From the NCBI RefSeq assembly GCF_003073045.1, contig NC_037600.1, positions 17,600,419-17,664,418 on the forward strand: DNA of 64,000 nucleotides, in the 5' to 3' direction. This document shows positions 35,646-51,393 of the stretch, piece after piece. Source of the DNA: Pomacea canaliculata. Its lineage: Eukaryota > Mollusca > Gastropoda > Architaenioglossa > Ampullariidae. The notes under the pieces were generated by a model. It was given only the letters and a program-made list of their open reading frames with translations. It was not told where the DNA came from and did not search any database. Positions within the stretch are counted from its first letter, which is position 1; each line of letters starts with the position of its first letter. Both the position numbers and the translations under genes were made by a program.

Positions 35646-36643
35646 CTGAAAAACAGTAAAAAATTTATCTTTTCCTCCACGTCGTTATCCTTTACTTAAC
35701 TGTCATCGCTATCAACACCAATTTCACACGCTGACAGATGTGTGTGGCCGGAGTCCCTTCGGGAAAAGCGTCTTAGATGGAAGTTTGAAATGGTACCGGA
35801 TGGTCCATTATCTTATGAAAGAGGTGAAAGGACCACTAAATGTTAGAGAGAATACACTGAGATTTAAGCTGACGCGAAGAGAAAGCTGACAAAACTTTAT
35901 AAGAATTTTGAGAGGGAATAGACCAATAGGTCTGTAAAGCGGGGACCCCACCAGGACGGCAGCAGAAACATTCTTTGGCCTAAAGACACAGACCAGCCTC
36001 ACCCTGACTGAGGTCCTACACTGTAGTTCAAGTGAGGGCAGTGTATGTTCAGTTAACCGACAGGTGTGGGTCACCTGGGTCTCTCATCTATAAGTAGTCT
36101 GGACCACAGAAGTCAGGAAGTTCCAGAGGCCTCATCATATCAAGGACCCCAACTTCCATCATAAGGGTTAACGAAACAGTTTAAAATAAGAAATTAGGAA
36201 AGCAGAAGAGAAGGGAGGAGAACAGCCTGAAAGATAATGGATGTTCATCCCCTGATCAAAAGGCCTCCCCACCCCCATGGGGTGGGGTGGGGTGTAAGGC
36301 ATAAGGGAACGAAACCATGAGCAGAATTTTGCTGCCTGAGAACACTTGGTCCTGAAGCATATTTTGTGAGTTGCCTCTAGAATGTCAACGCTTTCTTCTA
36401 AAACACATCTTCTTTCTGCTTCAGTCACTTCGTTGTAAAGCACATTGTGTTTGTTGTCGAGGGCTTTAAAATGCCTCTTCACGCGACAAGTTATCGTCAC
36501 CGTTAGCATCAGGTCGTCGCCATCACGAATATTGTCTGTAGGAGAAGCTAACATCCGTCTCCTTTCCCTTTGCATCATTCTCATGATTAAAACCTATCTT
36601 CGTCCTTCAGTGAGATTCTAGACACAAACCTGGTGCAACTCAC
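35646..36643 (-). other. 5' UTR intron of copy 4 with an unexplained 138-codon frame
   Basis: The intron contains a minus-strand frame (36584-36168, starting MRMMQRERRRMLASPTDNIR) that is also open in unit B (44027-43611). Its few differences are mostly amino-acid changing, and in unit C most of it is deleted, so a coding role is doubtful. No domain recognised. Confidence 0.4.
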
Positions 36644-37974
36644 CTGAATGTTCACCTCATGTGCAGCTCCACCCTAACTTCTCACACATCTCGCAACCGA
36701 CGATCCACTTAAATTGAAAAAGAGAGGAATATCATCAACGTGGACCAATTACAGGCTGTTACTATTTTTAAAGACCTAATCAATCTCAAGTACATACAAA
36801 TATTGCACAGAATTTCTCAAGTTTTTCGTCAAATCAATCACACTCGTGTTTACATTCCTTTCAAAACTTTTTTTGCGATATCCAGAGCAATGTTGATGGT
36901 CTGATCACGTGCACACGTATGACCTATGGCTAACAAACTCTACAGATACCAGTCATCACAGCAGTTGACACACGAGCAAGAAATTTGTCCTCTGACATTT
37001 TTATCTCCTTTTACAAACTCCATAATAATTGAAGAACTGAGAAGAAAAACTGGAAAATTGTTTTTCTGTTCCCTTAACAGATTGACTGGGTGGAGAGAAA
37101 TACAAATGCACTCAAGCATTTTATTATTAATATTTGCGAAAAATGTTTAAGTGAAATTTAAATTTATGTCTTACCCATCAATAATTGTTATTATTATTAT
37201 AGTTGTGGTGCCAGTTTTGGGGCAGAGAGGATTTTACGTAGACGTGGCAATTGTGGATGTGAGTAAGTAAGACTATAATGAATTATTCAGAAACATATGA
37301 CAGTTCGTAGAATATTGAAAGGAACATGTGTATGTCGTCTTGGTGACATGAAGAGAACTATTGGAGCAGCCTGTGCGCTGTAGTATTTCTGGAATTGAAA
37401 GATATTTGACGTATATCTTATTATTTAGAAGCGAACTGAAAGACTCAGACATTTCTGTATCTTTAGTTAATGTTGACTGTTATAAAGTTTTTGTTGCCTA
37501 CGACAAATCTAAGTGTTTTGTGAGTGAAGGAAAGAACACGAAAGGGGACGCGTGCGTGAAGTGAAAGTGAGAGATTAAAAAAAAAACAAAAACAAAAACA
37601 AAAAAAAAACAAACAGCGTCTCTGACAATTATAAACTAGATTCTGTCATTTGTTTTCATCTTCTGATTTAGAAGCATTTTTTCCCTTGGTTCTGTTCGTA
37701 CATCAAGTTTAAGATGTACTGGCGCCTGTCTACTTCACTGCCATTGCTCCCCACGCAGAACACAAGTCACGTGACCACCGTGTGGGTGTTTAAGGCTAGA
37801 CGGCTGTCAGGTCTGCCTAGTATTTAAAGTTGGGTTTCATCTGTGTGCAAATAAATTCAAAGATATTCCGAAATAGGAAATGTGTCAAAAGATAAACTTC
37901 AGACATTTTTATTTTTAGTTTTTTTAAAATGCATGGAGTGCAAAAAGAAGTGCGAACTGTACGGCAAGACGTCG

Positions 37975-38735
37975 TGTGTGGTGACGTGGTGTCTATCAGA
38001 TGTGTGTAGTGACGTGGTGTCTATCAGGTGTCGTGTGTGGTGACGTGGTGTCTATCAGGTGTGTGTGGTGACGTGGTGTCTATCAGATGTGTGTGGTGAC
38101 GTGGTGTCTATCAGGTGTCGTGTGTGGTGACGTGGTGTCTATCAGATGTGTGTGGTGACGTGGTGTCTATCAGATGTGTGTAGTGACGTGGTGTCTGTCA
38201 GGTGTCTTGTGTGATGACGTGGTGTCTATCAGATGTCTTGTGTGGTGACGTGGTGTCTATCAGATGTGTGTGGTGACGTGGTGTCTATCAGATGTGTGTG
38301 GTGACGTGGTGTCTATCAGGTGTCTTGTGTGGTGACGTGGTGTCTATCAGATGTGTGTGGTGACGTGGTGTCTATCAGGTGTCTTGTATGATGACGTGGT
38401 GTCTATCAGATGTCTTGTGTGGTGACGTGGTGTCTATCAGATATGTGTAGTGACGTGGTGTCTATCAGGTGTCTTGTGTGGTGACGTGGTGTCTATCAGA
38501 TGTCTTGTGTGATGACGTGGTGTCTATCAGATGTCTTGTGTGGTGACGTGGTGTCTGTCAGATGTGTGTGGTGACGTGGTGTCTGTCAGGTGTCTTGTGT
38601 GGTGACGTGGTGTCTTTCAGATGTCTTATGTGGTGACGTGGTGTCTATCAGATTTGTGTGGTGACGTGGTGTCTATCAGACGTCTTGTGTGGTGACGTGG
38701 TGTCTGTGAAATGTCTTGTGTGGTGATGTGCTATC
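37975..38735. repeat. ~28-bp minisatellite with TGACGTGG core (unit B)
   Basis: By hand count about 25 copies of GTGACGTGGTGTCTATCAG separated by variable ATGTGTGTG, GTGTCTTGTGTG or GTGTCGTGTGTG spacers, so the period alternates around 25-31 bp. Unit C has about 21 copies; unit A has none. Confidence 0.92.
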
Positions 38736-38992
38736 AGATATTTTGCGTTGTGACTCTTCTGGTCACACGCTCGCTGTACAGGTTTAAAACCCTGTGTTTT
38801 GAAAACTTGACATCTTACATAGAATGTCATATGAACATCTCTTCAAACGAAGGCAAGGGCATACTGAATAAAAAACTCAAATCTCTCTTTCTCTCTTACA
38901 CACACACACACACGCACGCACGCACACAAAGGCTCTGGAGCATGCATACATACGTACGGAGTAAGTGATAATGTTTTATTACCGTAGAGAGC

Positions 38993-39334
38993 GGTACACG
39001 GACGTTTCGCCGCCGGACGTTTCGGCGCGGGGCACTTCATTTCGGCATTTCACACAGGACCTTTAGCCGAAGTCAAGTGTGTGACGCCCCTTAGCTCACA
39101 CATTTCTCTCGCCATTGTATCAATGTTTTTTCGCAAAGCCGTTGCGACAATCTGTGACAATCAAAGTGAACTGTCTGTGAAGTCTGTGTGTAAAATTTGT
39201 TTGAAATAAAGAATTATTGTGTAATCTAGTAGTTACTTTCATTCTTTGAGAAGTAAGTAAGCTCTCTCTCTCTCTCTGACATAATGCGGCGAAACGTCCG
39301 GCGGCGAAACACCGGTCGGCAAAACGTCCGCACA
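38993..39334. mobile_element. 342-bp MITE with GC-rich inverted ends (unit B)
   Basis: Flanked by a direct repeat CGTAGAGAGC (38983-38992 and 39335-39344). The left end CACGGACGTTTCGCCGCCGG and the inverted right end TGTGCGGACGTTTTGCCGAC match imperfectly, and GGACGTTT motifs repeat inside both ends. There is no coding capacity. A 9-10 bp target duplication would fit Mutator-like elements, but the superfamily is an inference. Confidence 0.82.
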
Positions 39335-39489
39335 CGTAGAGAGCAAACTAAGATCACGTGTAACCCGTGTTTAATGTCATGAGAGGACAGCAACATTAGC
39401 CAAATAATTCTTACATTCTCGTCTAAATACAGACATAGTCCTTACATGACTGGTATACAAGTAAGTTGTTTCATATTCATACTCGTGCT

Positions 39490-39647
39490 CAGGCGCGTTC
39501 TTAGCCCCCGCGGGGCCCGAGGCAAAGGGCATGTGCGGGGCCCTCACGCCACCATCACCCGGTTTTCCATATGCCTAGTTACCATATCAATCAAAAGCGC
39601 GGGGCCCTAGCAGATGCCTCGTCCGCCTGCCCCTAAGCACGGCCCTG
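39490..39647 (+). mobile_element. 158-bp hAT-type MITE (unit B)
   Basis: Begins CAGGCGCGTTCTTAG and ends CTAAGCACGGCCCTG, an inverted pair of the CAGGGCCG-type known from hAT elements. An exact 8-bp target duplication CTCGTGCT lies at 39482-39489 and 39648-39655. Unit A has the uninterrupted site near 32598-32603. Non-autonomous. Confidence 0.85.
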
Positions 39648-39839
39648 CTCGTGCTCGTGGGGATACTAACCTTGATTACAAGCCCCCGCCTAGGGTCACA
39701 GTGTCAGTGAACTTTGGCCCTGGGTGGGTGAGACATAGAGTCACTGCGACACGCAGGTAAGACATCGACATCAAATACACCTGGAGTTCTTACATACAAT
39801 TCTGTACATAGTCATAGTCACATGACCTATAACCTAGAG

Positions 39840-40271
39840 CAGGGGTGGGCGGGGTTACATTTTATGGGCCTGTCTTTAAATTCTAATCTACGGGCCGGTA
39901 AAAGACCCAAAACCCAGGCCAGGTGACACAACAAACCTAGTGGTGATGGAATGGACAACAAGCGATAACACTTACTGAATTTATTGTGCATTGTGAAGAT
40001 GTTTGAATTCTCTCACAATCAAACTTTAAAACCAGCCATTCCTGTAAGTCAGCCCTTACCCCCGATATTCTCCAACGTCTCCATCAGACATGTCAGCCGT
40101 GGTATTTGTTATCTTTGTACTTTGTGTAAGAATGCTACTAACTGCACATTTCTAAAGGTGTTGTACTTGATAAAGTATATTTCAATGAAATTAACCTGGG
40201 CTGAATTTTAAAATAAATGAAAAAAGTGTACTTCAAACTTTTGAAGTCGAGCCGTACTTTGTCCACCCCTG
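39840..40271 (+). mobile_element. hAT-like MITE (unit B copy)
   Basis: Ends CAGGGGTGGGC and GTCCACCCCTG are inverted repeats. Flanks ACCTAGAG and GCCTATAG are consistent with a decayed 8-bp duplication. About 430 bp with no transposase. Present in all three units. Confidence 0.65.
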
Positions 40272-40451
40272 GCCTATAGTACCTTCCCCTGTCCTCATCC
40301 TCAAGGCTAACACAGATGGGGCAGATTCGCTTCTCTCCGTTCCATACTTACAATTACGACAGATATCTTTTTACTGCCTTTCTCTTTTTTTGGTCAATTT
40401 TTATAACAGCCTGCACTTGTCTGCCTCATACTGAAACAGAATAAAAATACT

Positions 40452-40760
40452 ATGACGCTTTTGCCCACCCTACAGTCAGCTATGGCTGTTACATACGGCA
40501 GTACCCACCTCTCAGTTAGCTATGGCTGTTACATACGGCAGTACCCACCCCACAGTCAGCTATGGCTGTTACATACGGCAGTACCCACCTCTCAGTCAGC
40601 TATGGCTGTTACATACGGCAGTACCCACCTCTCAGTTAGCTATGGCTGTTACATACGGCAGTACCCACCCCACAGTCAGCTATGGCTGTTACATACGGCA
40701 GTACCCACCTCACAGTCAGCTATGGCTGTTACGTACGGCAGTACCCACCCCACAGCTGGA
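40452..40760. repeat. 40-bp minisatellite (unit B)
   Basis: About seven copies of TATGGCTGTTACATACGGCA, then GTACCCACC(C/T)(C/A)(C/T)CAGT(C/T)AGC. The single related copy in unit A (33425-33475) shows the unexpanded state. Forty is not a multiple of three, so the repeat reads open in several frames (AMAVTYGSTH, SYGCYIRQYP, QLWLLHTAVP) with no evidence of being coding. Confidence 0.93.
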
Positions 40761-41917
40761 CTCAGGTTCCAAAAGTCTTGTCGCGAATGCTCCTCCTTAG
40801 ACACATCAGGTGGAGACGACGAACAGTCAGCTTCCCGAGGAGGAGGAGGAGGAGAAGAACTCATTTCAGTGGAGCTCATACATGCACGGCTTTATGTCCT
40901 TTATTTTTGTGTTTTCATGCACTCGGCGCACCTTGAATAGCTCCAGACTGGTTGTGGAAAGGATATCAATGACTGAAGTCAGCGAGTAGACAGTCAAACG
41001 ATTTCCAAAACTCCAATGTCGTCTTCAGCGTAAAGGAAATATGTTTGTTACACTGCTTTACAAAATAATGTTTTTTATCAAATTTATATGAATTATCTAC
41101 ATTTTAAATATTTAAATACTTTCTGGGCCATTTCAATTATCAGCAACACATTCTTATCAGAGATATTGCACTGGCCTCACTTAAAAGGGTTTTATTCATT
41201 GGACTACCAGATGTGGACACAGAAAGAAACGTGGATAAGTAAAAGCGGAGGGAAAAATTGTAAACAATTGCATTAATTATACAATACTTAGATTAACTTA
41301 ATTACAATTAATTCTTCGAATAACTGGGGGATGGGGTAGGATTTATAAACAGCCAAGCGGACATTATACTTCGAATAGTTGCATTAGTTTTAAATTTTAG
41401 GGAGGAATTTATTTCTAGTTATCGAGTTTACAGTTTAATCTTGTTCCTGCTCCTTAATTCTAAAAACAAATATACAAATACAAGTTGTCATTTCTGAGTC
41501 TTTTCGAATGAGAAAGACGATAACTCTGAAATGTCAGTCTCGCGAAAACTGCATGGTTATGTCCTTGAGGATAGTTAGCTCGATGACAAGTCGATTATTA
41601 AATGTCTGTTGTCCTACACTGAGGTATGTCATGTCAACGGCTTGGATTTAAAAATATGTCCTCAAAATCGTCTCTGCTTTACAAAATGGAATTTAAAAGT
41701 ATATTTAATGCCCTGAAGGTTTAGTCGAACTTCTTATGATCACAAATTACGATAAACGCAGTATTACGAATAGTTGAAATGAATTATTTGAAAAACATTA
41801 TCAGTGATTACATATTAAGACCTCAGACCTCTAAGACCTGTAATTCTGTCTGCTGTGCGTTCAGGTGTAAAATACTAGACTTATTTATCTCTGACAGTAA
41901 AGTTTTCTCTCTTTGTC

Positions 41918-43075
41918 CTATAGGTAGGTGTTGTGTTGTTTCTTCCCCTGAATTTGTGGATGAGAACTCTTTCTGTGTAGACAAGGAAACATTTCATGAA
42001 CCGTGTCCCTGAACTTGGTGCCAGCCGAGTAGTAGACAAAGAAGTCGATGCTACTGTTTAGAATGCTGCCCGTCTCGGCGATGTTGACGAGAAGAAAGTA
42101 AGAGTTATTATAACGACCAGCGAACCTCACTTCTGGTTCAAACAGATGAATGATTCTGATGATGATGTTGGGCAACGAGAGGACGAGAAACTCGATGGAG
42201 AGTGTGACGAGCATCTTGGTGATGGCCGTTTCCTTCTTGGTGTCAGAGGTCGACGTCTCCTTTCGAAAAGCTATTGACTGGTTCAGCTTCCATCCCGTGA
42301 GCGCCGTTGAGATAACGACAACGATGGGTATCCCGATAGACAAGATAATACCGTAGTAAGTTCCTTCGATGATACTTATTACTTCTTGGTACTGAAAGTA
42401 AAAGTCACCTGGGGTTGGTTCGTGCACTACCACGTTTGTAACAATATCGTGAAAGCAGACGACCTGGTAAGACCAGGTAACCACGAAAAAGGGTATCACG
42501 GTTAGACATGAGCCAAAAATTATTACAATTAGGATTACTTTAGTGCTGATGAGTGTTTTAGAATGTAATGGAAAGAGCACACTAAAGCACCGCTCACACG
42601 ACACGACGGCGGAGAGGAACATGGCGCCGTACATGAAGCCCAGCATCCCCAGCATCTTGCTGTTGGTCACGAAGGCGCCTACAACGCCAATGTCGCCCTC
42701 GTCAAAAGGCCGGTAAAGACTGTCAAAGTTGAGTATAAAGAGAAAAGAAATGTTGATGAGGTTAACGAGCTCGAGACTAAAGAGACACAGGTTGATTCTG
42801 TTGTTGAGGTTCTGCCTGTAGAAAGCGACCAAGCTGACGACAGACCCCATGACCCCCGTGACGAAGAGGATGGGCATGACGATGGCTTCCCGGATCTTGC
42901 CTATGAGGTGTTCCACCTCGGTGCTGATGGGGTCGTCGGGGTAGTCTTGGTGCATGACTTGTATGCAGTCTGTGGAAAAGTTGCTGACTTCATCGTCTGT
43001 CGAACTCACCGTTGACAGAGCTGTTGTCAAGTAAAGTGCAGCGCTGATGGCACCTTCTGTTGGGATGACCGCCAT
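41918..43075 (-). CDS. Rhodopsin-type GPCR, unit B (copy 5, chimeric)
   Basis: 385 aa, uninterrupted. Same motif set as copy 4 (C37, YPDDPIS, ERC, VVCFHD, LSLPN, DFFVY). Residues 25, 36 and 43 match copy A against C. Residues 56, 58, 129, 134, 136, 153 and everything diagnostic beyond match C against A. The tail is twelve residues longer than in A, ending QIQGKKQHNTYL. First exon ends at 44087 and exon 2 starts at 43090, as in A. The gene therefore has A-type promoter, 5' UTR and N-terminus joined to a C-type receptor body. Confidence 0.88.
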   Translation of the reverse strand: MAVIPTEGAISAALYLTTALSTVSSTDDEVSNFSTDCIQVMHQDYPDDPISTEVEHLIGKIREAIVMPILFVTGVMGSVVSLVAFYRQNLNNRINLCLFSLELVNLINISFLFILNFDSLYRPFDEGDIGVVGAFVTNSKMLGMLGFMYGAMFLSAVVSCERCFSVLFPLHSKTLISTKVILIVIIFGSCLTVIPFFVVTWSYQVVCFHDIVTNVVVHEPTPGDFYFQYQEVISIIEGTYYGIILSIGIPIVVVISTALTGWKLNQSIAFRKETSTSDTKKETAITKMLVTLSIEFLVLSLPNIIIRIIHLFEPEVRFAGRYNNSYFLLVNIAETGSILNSSIDFFVYYSAGTKFRDTVHEMFPCLHRKSSHPQIQGKKQHNTYL

Positions 43076-43090
43076 GGGTCTGGCAAGGTT

Positions 43091-44086
43091 CTGAAAAACA
43101 GTAAAAAATTTATCTTTTCCTCCACGTCGTTATCCTTTACTTAACTGTCATCGCTATCAACACCAATTTCACACGCTGACAGATGTGTGTGGCCGGAGTC
43201 CCTTCGGGAAAAGCGTCTTAGATGGAAGTTTGAAATGGTACCGGATGGTCCATTATCTTATGAAAGAGGTGAAAGGACCACTAAATGTTAGAGAGAATAC
43301 ACTGAGATTTAAGCTGACGCGAAGAGAAAGCTGACAAAACTTTATAAGAATTTTGAGAGGGAATAGACCAATAGGTCTGTAAAGCGGGGACCCACCAGGA
43401 CGGCAGCAGAAACATTCTTTGGCCTAAAGACACAGACCAGCCTCACCCTGACTGAGGTCCTACACTGTAGTTCAAGTGAGGGCAGTGTATGTTCAGTTAA
43501 CCGACAGGTGTGGGTCACCTGGGTCTCTCATCTATAAGTAGTCTGGACACAGAAGTCAGGAAGTTCCAGAGGCCTCATCATATCAAGGACCCCAACTTCC
43601 ATCATAAGGGTTAACGAAACAGTTTAAAATAAGAAATTAGGAAAGCAGAAGAGAAGGGAGGAGAACAGCCTGAAAGATAATGGATGTTCATCCCCTGATC
43701 AAAAAGCCTCCCCACCCCCATGGGGTGGGGTGGGGTGTAAGGCATAAGGGAACGAAACCATGAGCAGAATTTTGCTGCCTGAGAACACTTGGTCCTGAAG
43801 CATATTTTGTGAGTTGCCTCTAGAATGTCAACGCTTTCTTCTAAAACACATCTTCTTTCTACTTTAGTCACTTCGTTGTAAAGCACATTGTGTTTGTTGT
43901 CGAGGGCTTTAAAATGCCTCTTCACGCGACAAGTTATCGTCAACGTTAGCATCAGGTCGTCGCCATCACGAATATTGTCTGTAGGAGAAGCTAACATCCG
44001 TCTCCTTTCCCTTTGCATCATTCTCATGATTAAAACCTATCTTCGTCCTTTAGTGAGATTCTAGACACAAACCTGGTGCAACTCAC
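43091..44086 (-). other. 5' UTR intron of copy 5
   Basis: Nearly identical to the unit A intron (35646-36643) with GTGAGT donor and TTTTTCAG acceptor. The same 138-codon frame is open at 44027-43611 with a handful of amino-acid differences. Confidence 0.55.
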
Positions 44087-45418
44087 CTGAATGTTCACCT
44101 CATGTGCAGCTCCACCCTAACTTCTCACACATCTCGCAACCGACGATCCACTTAAATTGAAAAAGAGAGGAATATCATCAACGTGGACCAATTACAGGCT
44201 GTTACTATTTTTAAAGACCTAATCAATCTCAAGTACATACAAATATTGCACAGAATTTCTCAAGTTTTTCGTCAAATCAATCACACTCGTGTTTACATTC
44301 CTTTCAAAACTTTTTTTGCGATATCCATAGCAATGTTGATGGTCTGATCACGTGCACACGTATGACCTATGGCTAACAAACTCTACAGATATCAGTCATC
44401 ACAGCAGTTCACGCACGAGCAAGAAATTTGTCCTCTGACATTTTTATCTCCTTTTACAAACTCCATAATAATTGAAGAACTGAGAAGAAAAACTGGAAAA
44501 TTGTTTTTCTGTTCCCTTAACAGATTGACTGGGTGGAGAGAAATACAAATGCACTCAAGCATTTTATTATTAATATTTGCGAAAAATGTTTAAGTGAAAT
44601 TTAAATTTATGTCTTACCCATCAATAATTGTTATTATTATTATAGTTGTGGTGCCAGTTTTGGGGCAGAGAGGATTTTACGTAGACGTGGCAATTGTGGA
44701 TGTGAGTAAGTAAGACTATAATGAATTATTCAGAAACATACGACAGTTCGTAGAATATTGAAAGGAACATGTGTATGTCGTCTTGGTGACATGAAGAGAA
44801 CTATTGGAGCAGCCTGTGCGCTGTAGTATTTCTGGAATTGAAAGATATTTGACGTATATCTTATAATTTAGAAGCAAACTGAAAGACTCAGACATTTCTA
44901 TATCTTTAGTTAATGTTGACTGTTATAAAGTTTTTGTTGCCTACGACAAATCTAAGTGTTTTGTGAGTGAAGGAAAGAACACGAAAGGGGACGCGTGCGT
45001 GAAGTGAAAGTGTGAGATTCAAAAAAAAAAAAAAAAAAAAAAAACAAAAAAAAAAAAACAGCGTCTCTGACAATTATAAACTAGATTCTGTCCTTTGTTT
45101 TCATCTTCTGATTTAGAAGCATTTTTTCCCTTGGTTCTGTTCGTACATCAAGTTTAAGATGTACTGGCGCCTGTCTACTTCACTGCCATTGCTCCCCACG
45201 CAGAACACAAGTCACGTGACCACCGTGTGGGTGTTTAAGGCTAGACGGCTGTCAGGTCTGCCTGGTATTTAAAGTTGGGTTTCATCTGTGTGCAAATAAA
45301 TTCAAAGATATTCCGAAATAGGAAATGTGTCAAAAGATAAACTTCAGACATTTTTAGTTTTAGTTTTTTTTAAATGCATGGAGTGCAAAAAGAAGTGCGA
45401 ACTGTACGGCAAGACGTC

Positions 45419-46065
45419 GTGTGTGGTGACGTGGTGTCTATCAGATGTGTGTGGTGACGTGGTGTCTATCAGATGTGTGTAGTGACGTGGTGTCTGTCAG
45501 GTGTCTTGTGTGATGACGTGGTGTCTATCAGATGTGTGTGGTGACGTGGTGTCTATCAGGTGTCTTGTGTGATGACGTGGTGTCTATCAGATGTGTGTGG
45601 TGACGTGGTGTCTATCAGATGTGTGTGGTGACGTGGTGTCTATCAGGTGTCTTGTGTGATGACGTGGTGTCTATCAGATGTGTGTGGTGACGTGGTGTCT
45701 ATCAGGTGTCTTGTATGATGACGTGGTGTCTATCAGATGTCTTGTGTGGTGACGTGGTGTCTATCAGATATGTGTAGTGACGTGGTGTCTATCAGGTGTC
45801 TTGTGTGGTGACGTGGTGTCTATCAGATGTCTTGTGTGATGACGTGGTGTCTATCAGATGTCTTGTGTGGTGACGTGGTGTCTGTCAGATGTGTGTGGTG
45901 ACGTGGTGTCTGTCAGGTGTCTTGTGTGGTGACGTGGTGTCTTTCAGATGTCTTATGTGGTGACGTGGTGTCTATCAGATTTGTGTGGTGACGTGGTGTC
46001 TATCAGACGTCTTGTGTGGTGACGTGGTGTCTGTGAAATGTCTTGTGTGGTGATGTGCTATCAGA
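45419..46065. repeat. ~28-bp minisatellite with TGACGTGG core (unit C)
   Basis: About 21 copies, hand-counted, of the same unit as 37975-38735. It is shorter than the B array by internal loss or gain of copies; both ends are conserved. Confidence 0.92.
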
Positions 46066-46320
46066 TATTTTGCGTTGTGACTCTTCTGGTCACACGCTCG
46101 CTGTACAGGTTTAAAACCCTGTGTTTTGAAAACTTGACATCTTACATAGAATGTCATATGAACATCTCTTCAAACGAAGGCAAGGGCATACTGAATAAAA
46201 AACTCAAATCTCTCTTTCTCTCTTACACACACACACACACGCACGCACGCACACAAAGGCTCTGGAGCATGCATACATACGTACGGAGTAAGTGATAATG
46301 TTTTTATTACCGTAGAGAGC

Positions 46321-46662
46321 GGTACACGGACGTTTCGCCGCCGGACGTTTCGGCGCGGGGCACTTCATTTCGGCATTTCACACAGGACCTTTAGCCGAAG
46401 TCAAGTGTGTGACGCCCCTTAGCTCACACATTTCTCTCGCCATTGTATCAATGTTTTTTCGCAAAGCCGTTGCGACAATCTGTGACAATCAAAGTGAACT
46501 GTCTGTGAAGTCTGTGTGTAAAATTTGTTTGAAATAAAGAATTATTGCGTAATCTAGTAGTTACTTTCATTCTTTGAGAAGTAAGTAAGCTCTCTCTCTC
46601 TCTCTGACATAATGCGGCGAAACGTCCGGCGGCGAAACACCGGTCGGCAAAACGTCCGCACA
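46321..46662. mobile_element. 342-bp MITE (unit C)
   Basis: Same element, same length and same CGTAGAGAGC flanks (46311-46320, 46663-46672) as in unit B. It was copied with the segment, not inserted twice. Confidence 0.82.
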
Positions 46663-46817
46663 CGTAGAGAGCAAACTAAGATCACGTGTAACCCGTGTTT
46701 AATGTCATGAGAGGACAGCAACATTAGCCAAATAATTCTTACATTCTCGTCTAAATACAGACATAGTCCTTACATGACTGGTATACAAGTAAGTTGTTTC
46801 ATATTCATACTCGTGCT

Positions 46818-46975
46818 CAGGCGCGTTCTTAGCCCCCGCGGGGCCCGAGGCAAAGGGCATGTGCGGGGCCCTCACGCCACCATCACCCGGTTTTCCATAT
46901 GCCTAGTTACCATATCAATCAAAAGCGCGGGGCCCTAGCAGATGCCTCGTCCGCCTGCCCCTAAGCACGGCCCTG
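46818..46975 (+). mobile_element. 158-bp hAT-type MITE (unit C)
   Basis: Same element as 39490-39647 with the CTCGTGCT duplication at 46810-46817 and 46976-46983. Confidence 0.85.
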
Positions 46976-47166
46976 CTCGTGCTCGTGGGGATACTAACCT
47001 TGATTACAAGCCCCGCCTAGGGTCACAGTGTCAGTGAACTTTGGCCCTGGGTGGGTGAGACATAGAGTCACTGCGACACGCAGGTAAGACATCGACATCA
47101 AATACACCTGGAGTTCTTACATACAATTCTGTACATAGTCATAGTCACATGACCTATAACCTAGAG

Positions 47167-47597
47167 CAGGGGTGGGCGGGGTTACATTTTATGGGCCTGT
47201 CTTTAAATTCTAATCTACGGGCCGGTAAAAGACCCAAAACCCAGGCCAGGTGACACAACAAACTAGTGGTGATGGAATGGACAACAAGCGATAACACTTA
47301 CTGAATTTATTGTGCATTGTGAAGATGTTTGAATTCTCTCACAATCAAACTTTAAAACCAGCCATTCCTGTAAGTCAGCCCTTACCCCCGATATTCTCCA
47401 ACGTCTCCATCAGACATGTCAGCCGTGGTATTTATTATCTTTGTACTTTGTGTAAGAATGCTACTAACTGCACATTTCTAAAGGTGTTGTACTTGATAAA
47501 GTATATTTCAATGAAATTAACCTGGGCTGAATTTTAAAATAAATGAAAAAAGTGTACTTCAAACTTTTGAAGTCGAGCCGTACTTTGTCCACCCCTG
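47167..47597 (+). mobile_element. hAT-like MITE (unit C copy)
   Basis: Counterpart of 39840-40271, ends CAGGGGTGGGC and CACCCCTG. Confidence 0.65.
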
Positions 47598-47777
47598 GCC
47601 TATAGTACCTTCCCCTGTCCTCATCCTCAAGGCTAACACAGATGGGGCAGATTCGCTTCTCTCCGTTCCATACTTACAATTACGACAGATATCTTTTTAC
47701 TGCCTTTCTCTTTTTTTGGTCAATTTTTATAACAGCCTGCACTTGTCTGCCTCATACTGAAACAGAATAAAAATACT

Positions 47778-48090
47778 ATGACGCTTTTGCCCACCCCACA
47801 GTCAGCTATGGCTGTTACATACGGCAGTACCCACCTCTCAGTTAGCTATGGCTGTTACATACGGCAGTACCCACCCCACAGTCAGCTATGGCTGTTACAT
47901 ACGGCAGTACCCACCTCTCAGTCAGCTATGGCTGTTACATACGGCAGTACCCACCTCTCAGTTAGCTATGGCTGTTACATACGGCAGTACCCACCCCACA
48001 GTCAGCTATGGCTGTTACATACGGCAGTACCCACCTCACAGTCAGCTATGGCTGTTACGTACGGCAGTACCCACCCCACAGCTGGACTCA
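47778..48090. repeat. 40-bp minisatellite (unit C)
   Basis: Seven copies in the same order of variants as in unit B. A GAG-triplet run just after (48165-48185) is one triplet longer than in B. Confidence 0.93.
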
Positions 48091-49247
48091 GGTTCCAAAA
48101 GTCTTGTCGCGAATGCTCCTCCTTAGACACATCAGGTGGAGACGACGAACAGTCAGCTTCCCGAGGAGGAGGAGGAGGAGGAGAAGAACTCATTTCAGTG
48201 GAGCTCATACATGCACGGCTTTATGTCCTTTATTTTTGTGTTTTCATGCACTCGGCGCACCTTGAATAGCTCCAGACTGGTTGTGGAAAGGATATCAATG
48301 ACTGAAGTCAGCGAGTAGACAGTCAAACGATTTCCAAAACTCCAATGTCGTCTTCAGCGTAAAGGAAATATGTTTGTTACACTGCTTTACAAAATAATGT
48401 TTTTTATCAAATTTATATGAATTATCTACATTTTAAATATTTAAATACTTTCTGGGCCATTTCAATTATCAGCAACACATTCTTATCAGAGATATTGCAC
48501 TGGCCTCACTTAAAAGGGTTTTATTCATTGGACTACCAGATGTGGACACAGAAAGAAACGTGGATAAGTAAAAGCGGAGGGAAAAAATTGTAAACAATTG
48601 CATTAATTATACAATACTTAGATTAACTTAATTACAATTAATTCTTCGAATAACTGGGGGATGGGGTAGGATTTATAAACAGCCAAGCGGACATTATACT
48701 TCGAATAGTTGCATTAGTTTTAAATTTTAGGGAGGAATTTATTTCTAGTTATCGAGTTACAGTTTAATCTTGTTCCTGCTCCTTAATTCTAAAAACAAAT
48801 ATACAAATACAAGTTGTCATTTCTGAGTCTTTTCGAATGAGAAAGACGATAACTCTGAAATGTCAGTCTCGCGAAAACTGCATGGTTATGTCCCTTGAGG
48901 ATAGTTAGCTCGATGACAAGTCGATTATTAAATGTCTGTTGTCCTACACTGAGGTATGTCATGTCAACGGCTTGGATTTAAAAATATGTCCTCAAAATCG
49001 TCTCTGCTTTACAAAATGGAATTTAAAAGTATATTTAATGCCCTGAAGGTTTAGTCGAACTTCTTATGATCACAAATTACGATAAACGCAGTATTACGAA
49101 TAGTTGAAATGAATTATTTGAAAAACATTATCAGTGATTACATATTAAGACCTCAGACCTCTAAGACCTGTAATTCTGTCTGCTGTGCGTTCAGGTGTAA
49201 AATACTAGACTTATTTATCTCTGACAGTAAAGTTTTCTCTCTTTGTC

Positions 49248-50404
49248 CTATAGGTAGGTGTTGTGTTGTTTCTTCCCCTGAATTTGTGGATGAGAACTCT
49301 TTCTGTGTAGACAAGGAAACATTTCATGAACCGTGTCCCTGAACTTGGTGCCAGCCGAGTAGTAGACAAAGAAGTCGATGCTACTGTTTAGAATGCTGCC
49401 GTCTCGGCGATGTTGACGAGAAGAAAGTAAGAGTTATTATAACGACCAGCGAACCTCACTTCTGGTTCAAACAGATGAATGATTCTGATGATGATGTTGG
49501 GCAACGAGAGGACGAGAAACTCGATGGAGAGTGTGACGAGCATCTTGGTGATGGCCGTTTCCTTCTTGGTGTCAGAGGTCGACGTCTCCTTTCGAAAAGC
49601 TATTGACTGGTTCAGCTTCCATCCCGTGAGCGCCGTTGAGATAACGACAACGATGGGTATCCCGATAGACAAGATAATACCGTAGTAAGTTCCTTCGATG
49701 ATACTTATTACTTCTTGGTACTGAAAGTAAAAGTCACCTGGGGTTGGTTCGTGCACTACCACGTTTGTAACAATATCGTGAAAGCAGACGACCTGGTAAG
49801 ACCAGGTAACCACGAAAAAGGGTATCACGGTTAGACATGAGCCAAAAATTATTACAATTAGGATTACTTTAGTGCTGATGAGTGTTTTAGAATGTAATGG
49901 AAAGAGCACACTAAAGCACCGCTCACACGACACGACGGCGGAGAGGAACATGGCGCCGTACATGAAGCCCAGCATCCCCAGCATCTTGCTGTTGGTCACG
50001 AAGGCGCCTACAACGCCAATGTCGCCCTCGTCAAAAGGCCGGTAAAGACTGTCAAAGTTGAGTATAAAGAGAAAAGAAATGTTGATGAGGTTAACGAGCT
50101 CGAGACTAAAGAGACACAGGTTGATTCTGTTGTGAAGGTTCTGCCTGTAGAAAGCGACCAAGCTGACGACAGACCCCATGACCCCCGTGACGAAGAGGAT
50201 GGGCATGACGATGGCTTCCCGGATCTTGCCTATGAGGTGTTCCACCTCGGTGCTGATGGGGTCGTCGGGGTAGTCTCGGTGCATGACTTGTATGCAGTTT
50301 GTGGAAAAGTTGCTGACTTCATCGTCTGTCGGACTCACCGTTGACAGAGCTGTTGTGAAGTAAAGTGCGGCGCTGATGGCACCTTCTGTTGGAATGACCG
50401 CCAT
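49248..50404 (-). pseudogene. Rhodopsin-type GPCR, unit C (copy 6), frameshifted before TM7
   Basis: The frame is open from the ATG at 50404 for 338 codons and stops at 49388. One C is missing in GCTGCCGTCTCGG (about 49397-49402) compared with GCTGCCCGTCTCGG in unit B. The protein ends NIAETAAF instead of NIAETGSILNSS, so TM7, the NPxxY-like motif and the tail are lost. The rest is intact and almost identical to copy 5 apart from S25P, D36N, Q43R and N91H. First exon ends at 50843, exon 2 starts at 50419. It may be a recent pseudogene, a polymorphism or an assembly error; two near-identical units make the last plausible. Confidence 0.75.
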
Positions 50405-51393
50405 GGGTCTGGCAAGGTTCTGAAAAACATTAAAAAAATTATCCTTCCCTCGTCCACGTTGTTATTCTTTACTTAACTGTCATCACTACCAACATCAGTT
50501 TCACACGCTGACAGATGTGTGTGGCCGGAGTCCCTTTGTAAAAAGTGTCTTAGATGGAAGTTTGAAAACGTATCAGATGGTCCGTAATGCTATGAATGCG
50601 GCGAAAGGACCACTAAATGTTAGAGAGAATACACTGAGATTCAAGCTGACACGAAGAGTAAGCTGACCAAACTTTATAAGAATATTGAGTTATCGTCACC
50701 GTTAATATCAGGTCGTCGCCATCACGAATATTGTCTGTAGGAGAAGCTAACATCCGTCTCCTTTCCCTTTGCATCCTTCTCATGATTAAAACCTGTTTTC
50801 GTCCTTCAGTGAGATTCTAGACACAAACCTGGTGCAACTCACCTGAATGCTCACCTCATGTGCAGCTCCACCCTAACTTCTCACACACCTTGCAACCGAC
50901 GATCCACTTAAATTGAAGAAGAGAGGAATATCATCCACGTGGACCAATTACAGGCTGTTACTTATTTTAAAGACCTAATCAATCTCATGTACATACAAAT
51001 ATTGCAGAGAATTTCTCAAGTTTTTCGTCAAATCAATCACACTCGTGTTTACACTCCTTTCAAAACTTTTTTGCGATATCCAGAGCAATGTTAATGGTAT
51101 GATCACGTGCACACGTATGACCCATGGCTAACAAACACTCTACAGATATCAGTCATCACAGCAGTTGACACACGAGCAAGAAATTTGTCCTCTGACATTT
51201 TTATCTCCTTTTACAAACTCCATAATAATTGAAGAATTGAAAATAAAAACTGGAAAATTGTTTTTCGGCTCCCTTAACAGATTGACTGGGTGGAGAGAAA
51301 TACAAATGCACTCAAGCATTTTATTATTAATATTTGGGGAAAATGTTTAAATGAAATTTAAATTCATGTCTTACCCATCAATAATTGTTATTA

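Follow-up and report, generated by a model that had tools for sequence, protein, structure and literature searches.

Three seven-transmembrane (7TM) receptor genes, A, B and C, stand in tandem on the minus strand of the window, the whole 64,000-nucleotide stretch of Pomacea canaliculata DNA analysed here (C11:17600419-17664418), and the middle gene resembles one neighbour at one end and the other neighbour at the opposite end. How did such a gene come about? We find that B is a chimera with one main switch inside the receptor gene, a conclusion supported by base-by-base alignment of the three units, and that the gene is likely young. That B exists on real chromosomes rather than in the assembly, that it was born by meiotic exchange between homologues and that it is expressed from the promoter of A is what we infer from this pattern. 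The features on which the argument draws are collected in the table.

The reading frames of A, B and C match the Srw and/or the rhodopsin-like 7TM families in profile searches, B scoring above the curated cut-offs of both (Srw, 40.6 bits against 22.2; 7tm_1, 34.1 against 30.5). Five more frames of the window, four on the minus and one on the plus strand, match the same families, whose names would suggest a chemosensory role for the A, B and C receptors. When the genome (440,159,624 bases in 24 contigs) was searched with the B protein, 107 matches were scored out of 1616 first-look candidates, most of the 107 clustering at about C4:25.2-25.9 Mb. Between A and C dN/dS is 0.025/0.044, a figure with few changes behind it. 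The open frame of C is shortened near its end by a 1-bp deletion at 49398 (CCC to CC) relative to B at 42069. Because single-base indels are in excess around 49398, the frameshift suggests an assembly or sequencing error rather than a pseudogene; if it is real, B alone of these units carries an intact C-type body. On the plus strand, downstream of B and of C, lie two open frames (40452-40940, 162 aa; 47778-48269, 163 aa) that mostly cover a 40-bp tandem repeat and are probably not genes. Directly before the window lie 5000 N (window -4999 to 0), which may be a scaffold gap.

Table. Coordinates of the receptor array and of the features bearing on the origin of unit B (positions in the window)
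Feature	Position	Strand	Basis or remark
Unit A receptor CDS, 373 aa	34509..35630	-	ORF; Pfam 7tm_1 E 1.1e-09, Srw 3.2e-09; parent of the 5' end of B
Unit B receptor CDS, 385 aa	41918..43075	-	ORF, profile matches, alignments; chimera with A-type N-terminus and C-type body
Unit C receptor ORF, 338 aa as assembled	49388..50404	-	Frameshifted near its end; parent of the body of B
Likeliest switch interval	42910..42947		Without any A/B/C difference; alignment and site-pattern model
More cautious switch interval	42759..42947		Allows for A-derived 42904/42909 and C-derived 42805/42806
A-type part of B comparable with C	42948..44636		N-terminal codons, splice acceptor, upstream flank; SNPs: 61 A with B, 7 A with C, 1 B with C
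Segment common to A and B, about 575 bp	43357..43931		In A at about 35912-36488; absent from C at 50687/50688; A-type marker of the right side of B
Candidate splice acceptor AG	43091..43092	-	Shared by A, B and C, 15 nt upstream of the ATG; putative, from sequence
Nearly identical B/C block	38333..42909		5 SNPs and 8 small indels
Unit C partner of the nearly identical block	45660..50238		Self-comparison, alignment
Minisatellite left of B, 31-bp period, about 25.6 copies	37967..38730		Repeat analysis
Minisatellite left of C, 31-bp period, about 21.7 copies	45412..46057		Same repeat as left of B

In the three-way alignment the identity of B and C per 250 columns stays at 98.8-100% between 38.7 kb and the gene, a stretch over which A and B are mostly 81-97% identical, very short aligned pieces aside. 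On the right of the switch, A-B identity is 98-100% as far as 44.9 kb and 94.5-99.5% beyond, and B-C identity drops to about 81-96% until homology with C stops near 44.64 kb; the A- and B-only segment of about 575 bp goes along with this right half. Site by site the picture is the same. SNPs at B 39000-42925 comprise 235 at which B and C agree against A, five that unite A with B and one that unites A with C; at B 42926-44640 the corresponding counts are one, 61 and seven. With the switch set at 42910-42947, 256 of 261 sites are C-like on the left, the other five uniting A with B, and 61 of 62 are A-like on the right, the exception uniting B with C. The 323 sites at B 38760-44636 that group B with A or with C fall into 12 runs, far beyond chance (2000 shuffles averaged 106 runs and never gave fewer than 87), and these runs consist of the main switch and five isolated exceptions, at 40108, 41252, 41429, 42805/42806 and 44392. 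The initial annotation, which had described B as C-like on its left and A-like on its right in flanks and protein, is borne out: the alignment it had proposed finds one main switch point, and neither of the patterns it had named as speaking against a chimera, alternating patches or equal similarity of B to A and to C on both sides, is seen.

The protein divides likewise. Residues 25, 36 and 43 of B are A-type and residues 56, 58, 129, 134, 136 and 153 (at 42618, a C-type change common to B and C) C-type, all nine as first described, and H91 is indeed private to C; L16, private to B, was absent from that list. Compared with C, B has 5 differences in 334 residues, and compared with A it has 17 in 370; its body within residues 44-334 differs from C at residue 91 only. 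A mosaic test of B as the child of A and C gives p = 0.0036 on the coding sequence alone, which fails correction for 75 tests; the strong evidence comes from coding sequence and flanks jointly. As an observation apart, the A-type half of B carries seven B-private changes at 43028-44413 and A only one private change there, a lopsided ratio.

How sharp is the switch? The 36-bp interval first proposed, 42911..42946, is still its likeliest place, no A/B/C difference being present from 42910 to 42947, but its edges are softer than claimed when the sites are polarised with five outgroup paralogues, other receptors of the window; the stretch TATGAGGTGTTCC common to B and C, given as lying at 42903, starts at 42902. 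According to the outgroups, A is the unit that changed at sites 42904 and 42909 (residues 58 and 56), where B and C agree against it, and C is the unit that changed at 42805/42806 (N91H, with a silent substitution in codon 90), although one of the five outgroups has the base of C at 42806. Having changed on the branch of A or of C, none of these sites therefore proves the descent of B from either parent. The first sites right of the switch, 42948 and 42970, are also changes in C, and the right edge is drawn by the density of C-private sites and by no single one; descent from A on this side is argued from the number of C-private changes, too many to date from after the parting of B and C, at 0.1% divergence.

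An unpolarised best-fit scan puts the switch at 42758-42805. A site-pattern model with coding rates gives 0.67 to the interval first proposed and 0.32 to 42758-42804 if the dinucleotide 42805/42806 is taken as two events, and 0.98 and 0.005 if it is taken as one; with the rates of the whole left block the respective values are 0.04 and 0.88 for two events and 0.63 and 0.33 for one. Positions left of 42758 receive at most 0.09 and those right of 42948 at most 0.012. The likeliest switch lies in codons of the N-terminal tail, and the more cautious interval reaches TM2 at most, with the helices placed by eye. The switch sits in A-C identity, 38 bp being without difference and a 97-bp run identical in A and C lying close by. 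The longest such run (213 bp, ending at B 42302) was considered as the exchange site and rejected, the switch interval lying elsewhere.

If unequal crossing-over made B, the interval from the switch point of A to that of B (S1, 35.47-42.93 kb) and the interval from there to the switch point of C (S2, 42.93-50.26 kb) should be two copies of one segment, alike at the start. With a poly-A stretch, the minisatellite and the 40-bp repeat array masked, S1 and S2 differ by 22 events in 6328 aligned bp, that is, by 0.35%. These events are unevenly spread, with 19 in the 2445 bp of A/B-right sequence and spacer against 3 in the 3883 bp of B/C-left sequence (the dinucleotide 42805/6 counted once, and the SNP at 40471 left out as part of a masked repeat). 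A change-point scan rejects a uniform clock, since 0 of 2000 placements were as uneven (p = 0.0005), and sets the best change-point at S1 37932 in the unmasked sequence. The last difference before the quiet block, at 38332, falls inside the minisatellite, which is absent in self-comparison from the corresponding flank of A (about 32.1-32.2 kb), and a donor-tract test, looking for two ends within a unit of the other type, places the second low-divergence edge near or inside the minisatellite. The eight small indels of the block, seven of a single base and one of three bases, fall in short homopolymers or repeats, and the deletion that truncates C is among them. That B and C diverge so little in the left block because it mutates slowly is rejected: 261 of 3164 sites there distinguish A from C, more than the 62 of 1150 on the right (Fisher p = 0.0025, scaled by A-C divergence).

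The single uniform divergence expected if sister chromatids alone had been involved was thus not found between S1 and S2, and the unevenness excludes a plain sister-chromatid or intrachromosomal duplication without later homogenisation. For the history put forward in the initial annotation, in which an ancestral pair A, C recombined out of register to give A-B-C, this means that the simplest history stands, with its one main switch, but that its plain sister-chromatid form is insufficient. What is needed is either an exchange between homologues whose alleles differed, or conversion between B and C at a later date over about 4.6 kb, or replacement of an older A copy by C sequence, or an artefact of assembly. 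Two alleles are free to diverge unevenly, so uniform divergence is not a defining feature of an exchange between homologues. Coalescent simulations of two alleles were run in six settings (theta 0.01-0.02), each yielding 30 to 574 runs with a similar total; in 24-90% of these runs the unevenness is as large as that observed, the value of 90% coming from 30 runs. In the same simulations the probability of an S1/S2 total at or below that observed is 0.01-0.15, which is low for two random alleles.

We give about an even chance to the view that B was born by non-allelic homologous recombination (NAHR) between C of one homologue and A of the other. The exchange would fall within codons of the N-terminal tail, likeliest at 42910-42947 and more cautiously at 42759-42947, and the product chromosome would carry, in order, A, the left part of C joined to the right part of A (that is, B), and C, so that B would encode the seven-helix body of C under the upstream flank of A. 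Given that the parental chromosomes would be different haplotypes, S1 and S2 would differ as two alleles do, unevenly, from the first day. In accordance with NAHR or unequal crossing-over, what is found is a two-part mosaic with one switch, with both parents alongside, in the order A-B-C. The heterozygosity reported for the sequenced snail is 1-2% (PMC6129957) and the population diversity given in a resequencing paper is 0.00427 to 0.0580 (PMC11417965); the S1/S2 divergence lies below the former, which we count in favour of an origin between homologues and which suggests a young event that may be polymorphic to this day. Counted against it are the low S1/S2 total, the seven against one private changes on the right, which no model explains, and the position of the switch outside the longest run of A-C identity.

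Is B then a gene at all? One assembled genome cannot show that B is no assembly error. It is conceivable, if rather unlikely, that the individual has A and C only and that the interval from A to C was assembled twice in tandem, once from each allele, reads of haplotype 1 ending in the left part of C having been overlapped with reads of haplotype 2 in A; B would then not exist. S1 and S2 do resemble two alleles, and the assembly was built from one highly heterozygous adult with PacBio reads, smartdenovo and Pilon base correction, its authors stating that heterozygous regions emerge as alternative contigs (PMC6129957). Off-diagonal Hi-C contacts in the assembly, perhaps from missing links or misassembly, have also been described (PMC11417965). 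In the nearly identical block small indels outnumber SNPs by eight to five, as expected where short reads lack unique placement; these indels are likely to be uncorrected errors because short reads cannot be placed there. Against an artefact speak the clean switch, with almost no A-left sequence in the left part of B over about 4 kb, and a megablast self-comparison of 264 kb of left flank and window (5 kb of it N), which revealed no repeat of at least 800 bp besides the array and one pair of 79% identity, hence no other near-identical one. Collapse is also commoner than expansion in such assemblies. A haplotig hidden elsewhere in the assembly is rejected, since genome searches with the DNA of 43100-44600 and 41000-41900 gave no copies besides A, B and C.

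Two further histories keep B as a gene and explain the quiet block by conversion. A sister-chromatid or intrachromosomal exchange may have made A-B-C earlier, with a later B-C gene conversion homogenising about 4.6 kb from minisatellite to gene; in agreement with this, divergence falls from 19/2445 to 3/3883 at a change-point best placed at S1 37932, and 38332, inside the minisatellite, would be a plausible initiation site. It asks for two events where an exchange between homologues asks for one, and the right end of its tract is indistinguishable from the switch, and we consider it improbable. Quite improbable, too, is that B began as an A-like tandem copy whose left part was replaced by C sequence in one conversion tract of about 4.6 kb that ended at the switch. 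One tract with ends near 38.33 kb (minisatellite) and 42.93 kb (gene) would explain both the B-C identity and the lost B-A identity, but an earlier duplication of the whole unit A is required and a tract of this length is long for conversion.

Do other receptor genes of the family show mosaics of the same kind? A triplet screen covered A, B and C together with 14 of the 20 receptor genes fetched from C4, the other six having no pair above 83% and being left out; 75 tests satisfied the filters, which demanded 85% identity in all pairs and 8 or more informative sites. Four C4 triplets from the top of the list, with L032 as the child in three and L033 in one, reach p values of 5e-6 (the three; 0 of 200,000 permutations) and 2.5e-5 (the one). 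They show patches and not one switch, and selection on hypervariable loops is also possible. In L032 (C4:25367967-25369013), a gene that elsewhere resembles L033 or L045, a patch at about nt 573-669 of the stretch read in coding direction is like L046 or L034 (p about 5e-6); it reflects gene conversion or convergent selection, and the stretch may be extracellular loop 2, placed by eye. In the same region, C4:25347875-25388549 and C4:25469605-25509565 hold receptor genes in the same order (L030, L031, L034, L035 and L043, L044, L047, L048), about 120-122 kb apart and 95.5-96.5% identical, which is either a block duplication or two haplotypes in one scaffold.

What would the chimeric structure mean for the product of B? 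The candidate splice acceptor common to A, B and C suggests that at least one 5' exon probably comes before the coding exon. The initial annotation had credited B with the promoter and 5' UTR of A. This holds for the A-like flank, which extends from 42948 at least as far as 44636 and takes in the candidate splice acceptor, and is otherwise partly conjecture, no 5' exon or promoter having been located. The likely effect, as predicted from the DNA, would be a receptor with the ligand specificity of C and the expression of A. On a more speculative and unlikely view, recombination at the array is ongoing and the locus polymorphic in invasive apple snails: two- and three-unit haplotypes segregate, exchanges in the N-terminal tail repeatedly put the ligand-binding body of C under the upstream control of A, and the minisatellite starts homogenisation.

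The closest known case is human OR8U1, which arose when NAHR fused OR8U8 with OR8U9 (Hasin et al. 2008, PMC2570968). There, too, tandem 7TM genes are joined within the coding sequence and the switch falls in a short stretch identical in all copies, 119 bp in OR8U1. Unlike B, OR8U1 turned two genes into one and is presumably the reciprocal deletion product, with both alleles demonstrated in the population by allele-specific primers (PMC2570968), whereas B would be the duplication product, seen in one assembly with both parents still alongside. The hybrid L/M opsins of primates are likewise tandem GPCR genes recombined by unequal meiotic exchange, with gene conversion between the members, but they are multi-exon genes with a known colour-vision phenotype (PMC3213168). 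Within the same genus, GPCR expansions of ampullariids including Pomacea comprise many tandemly duplicated genes linked to chemoreception (PMC13336756); that paper counts 31 genes in Pomacea, as compared with the 107 scored matches to B out of 1616 first-look candidates, and chimeric copies are not mentioned in its available excerpts. Among titles and opening lines of abstracts, no report of chimeric receptor genes in a mollusc was found.

For any long-read array in a heterozygous genome it is worthwhile to check whether the duplicated intervals resemble alleles. Exchange out of step is a familiar route by which receptor genes are born, and the snail gene, if real, is another such case, a receptor gene caught soon after birth with both parents adjacent. 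Resequenced genomes of this invasive snail number 173 (PMC11417965), and if B is real the copy number, age and expression of this new receptor could be followed in populations.
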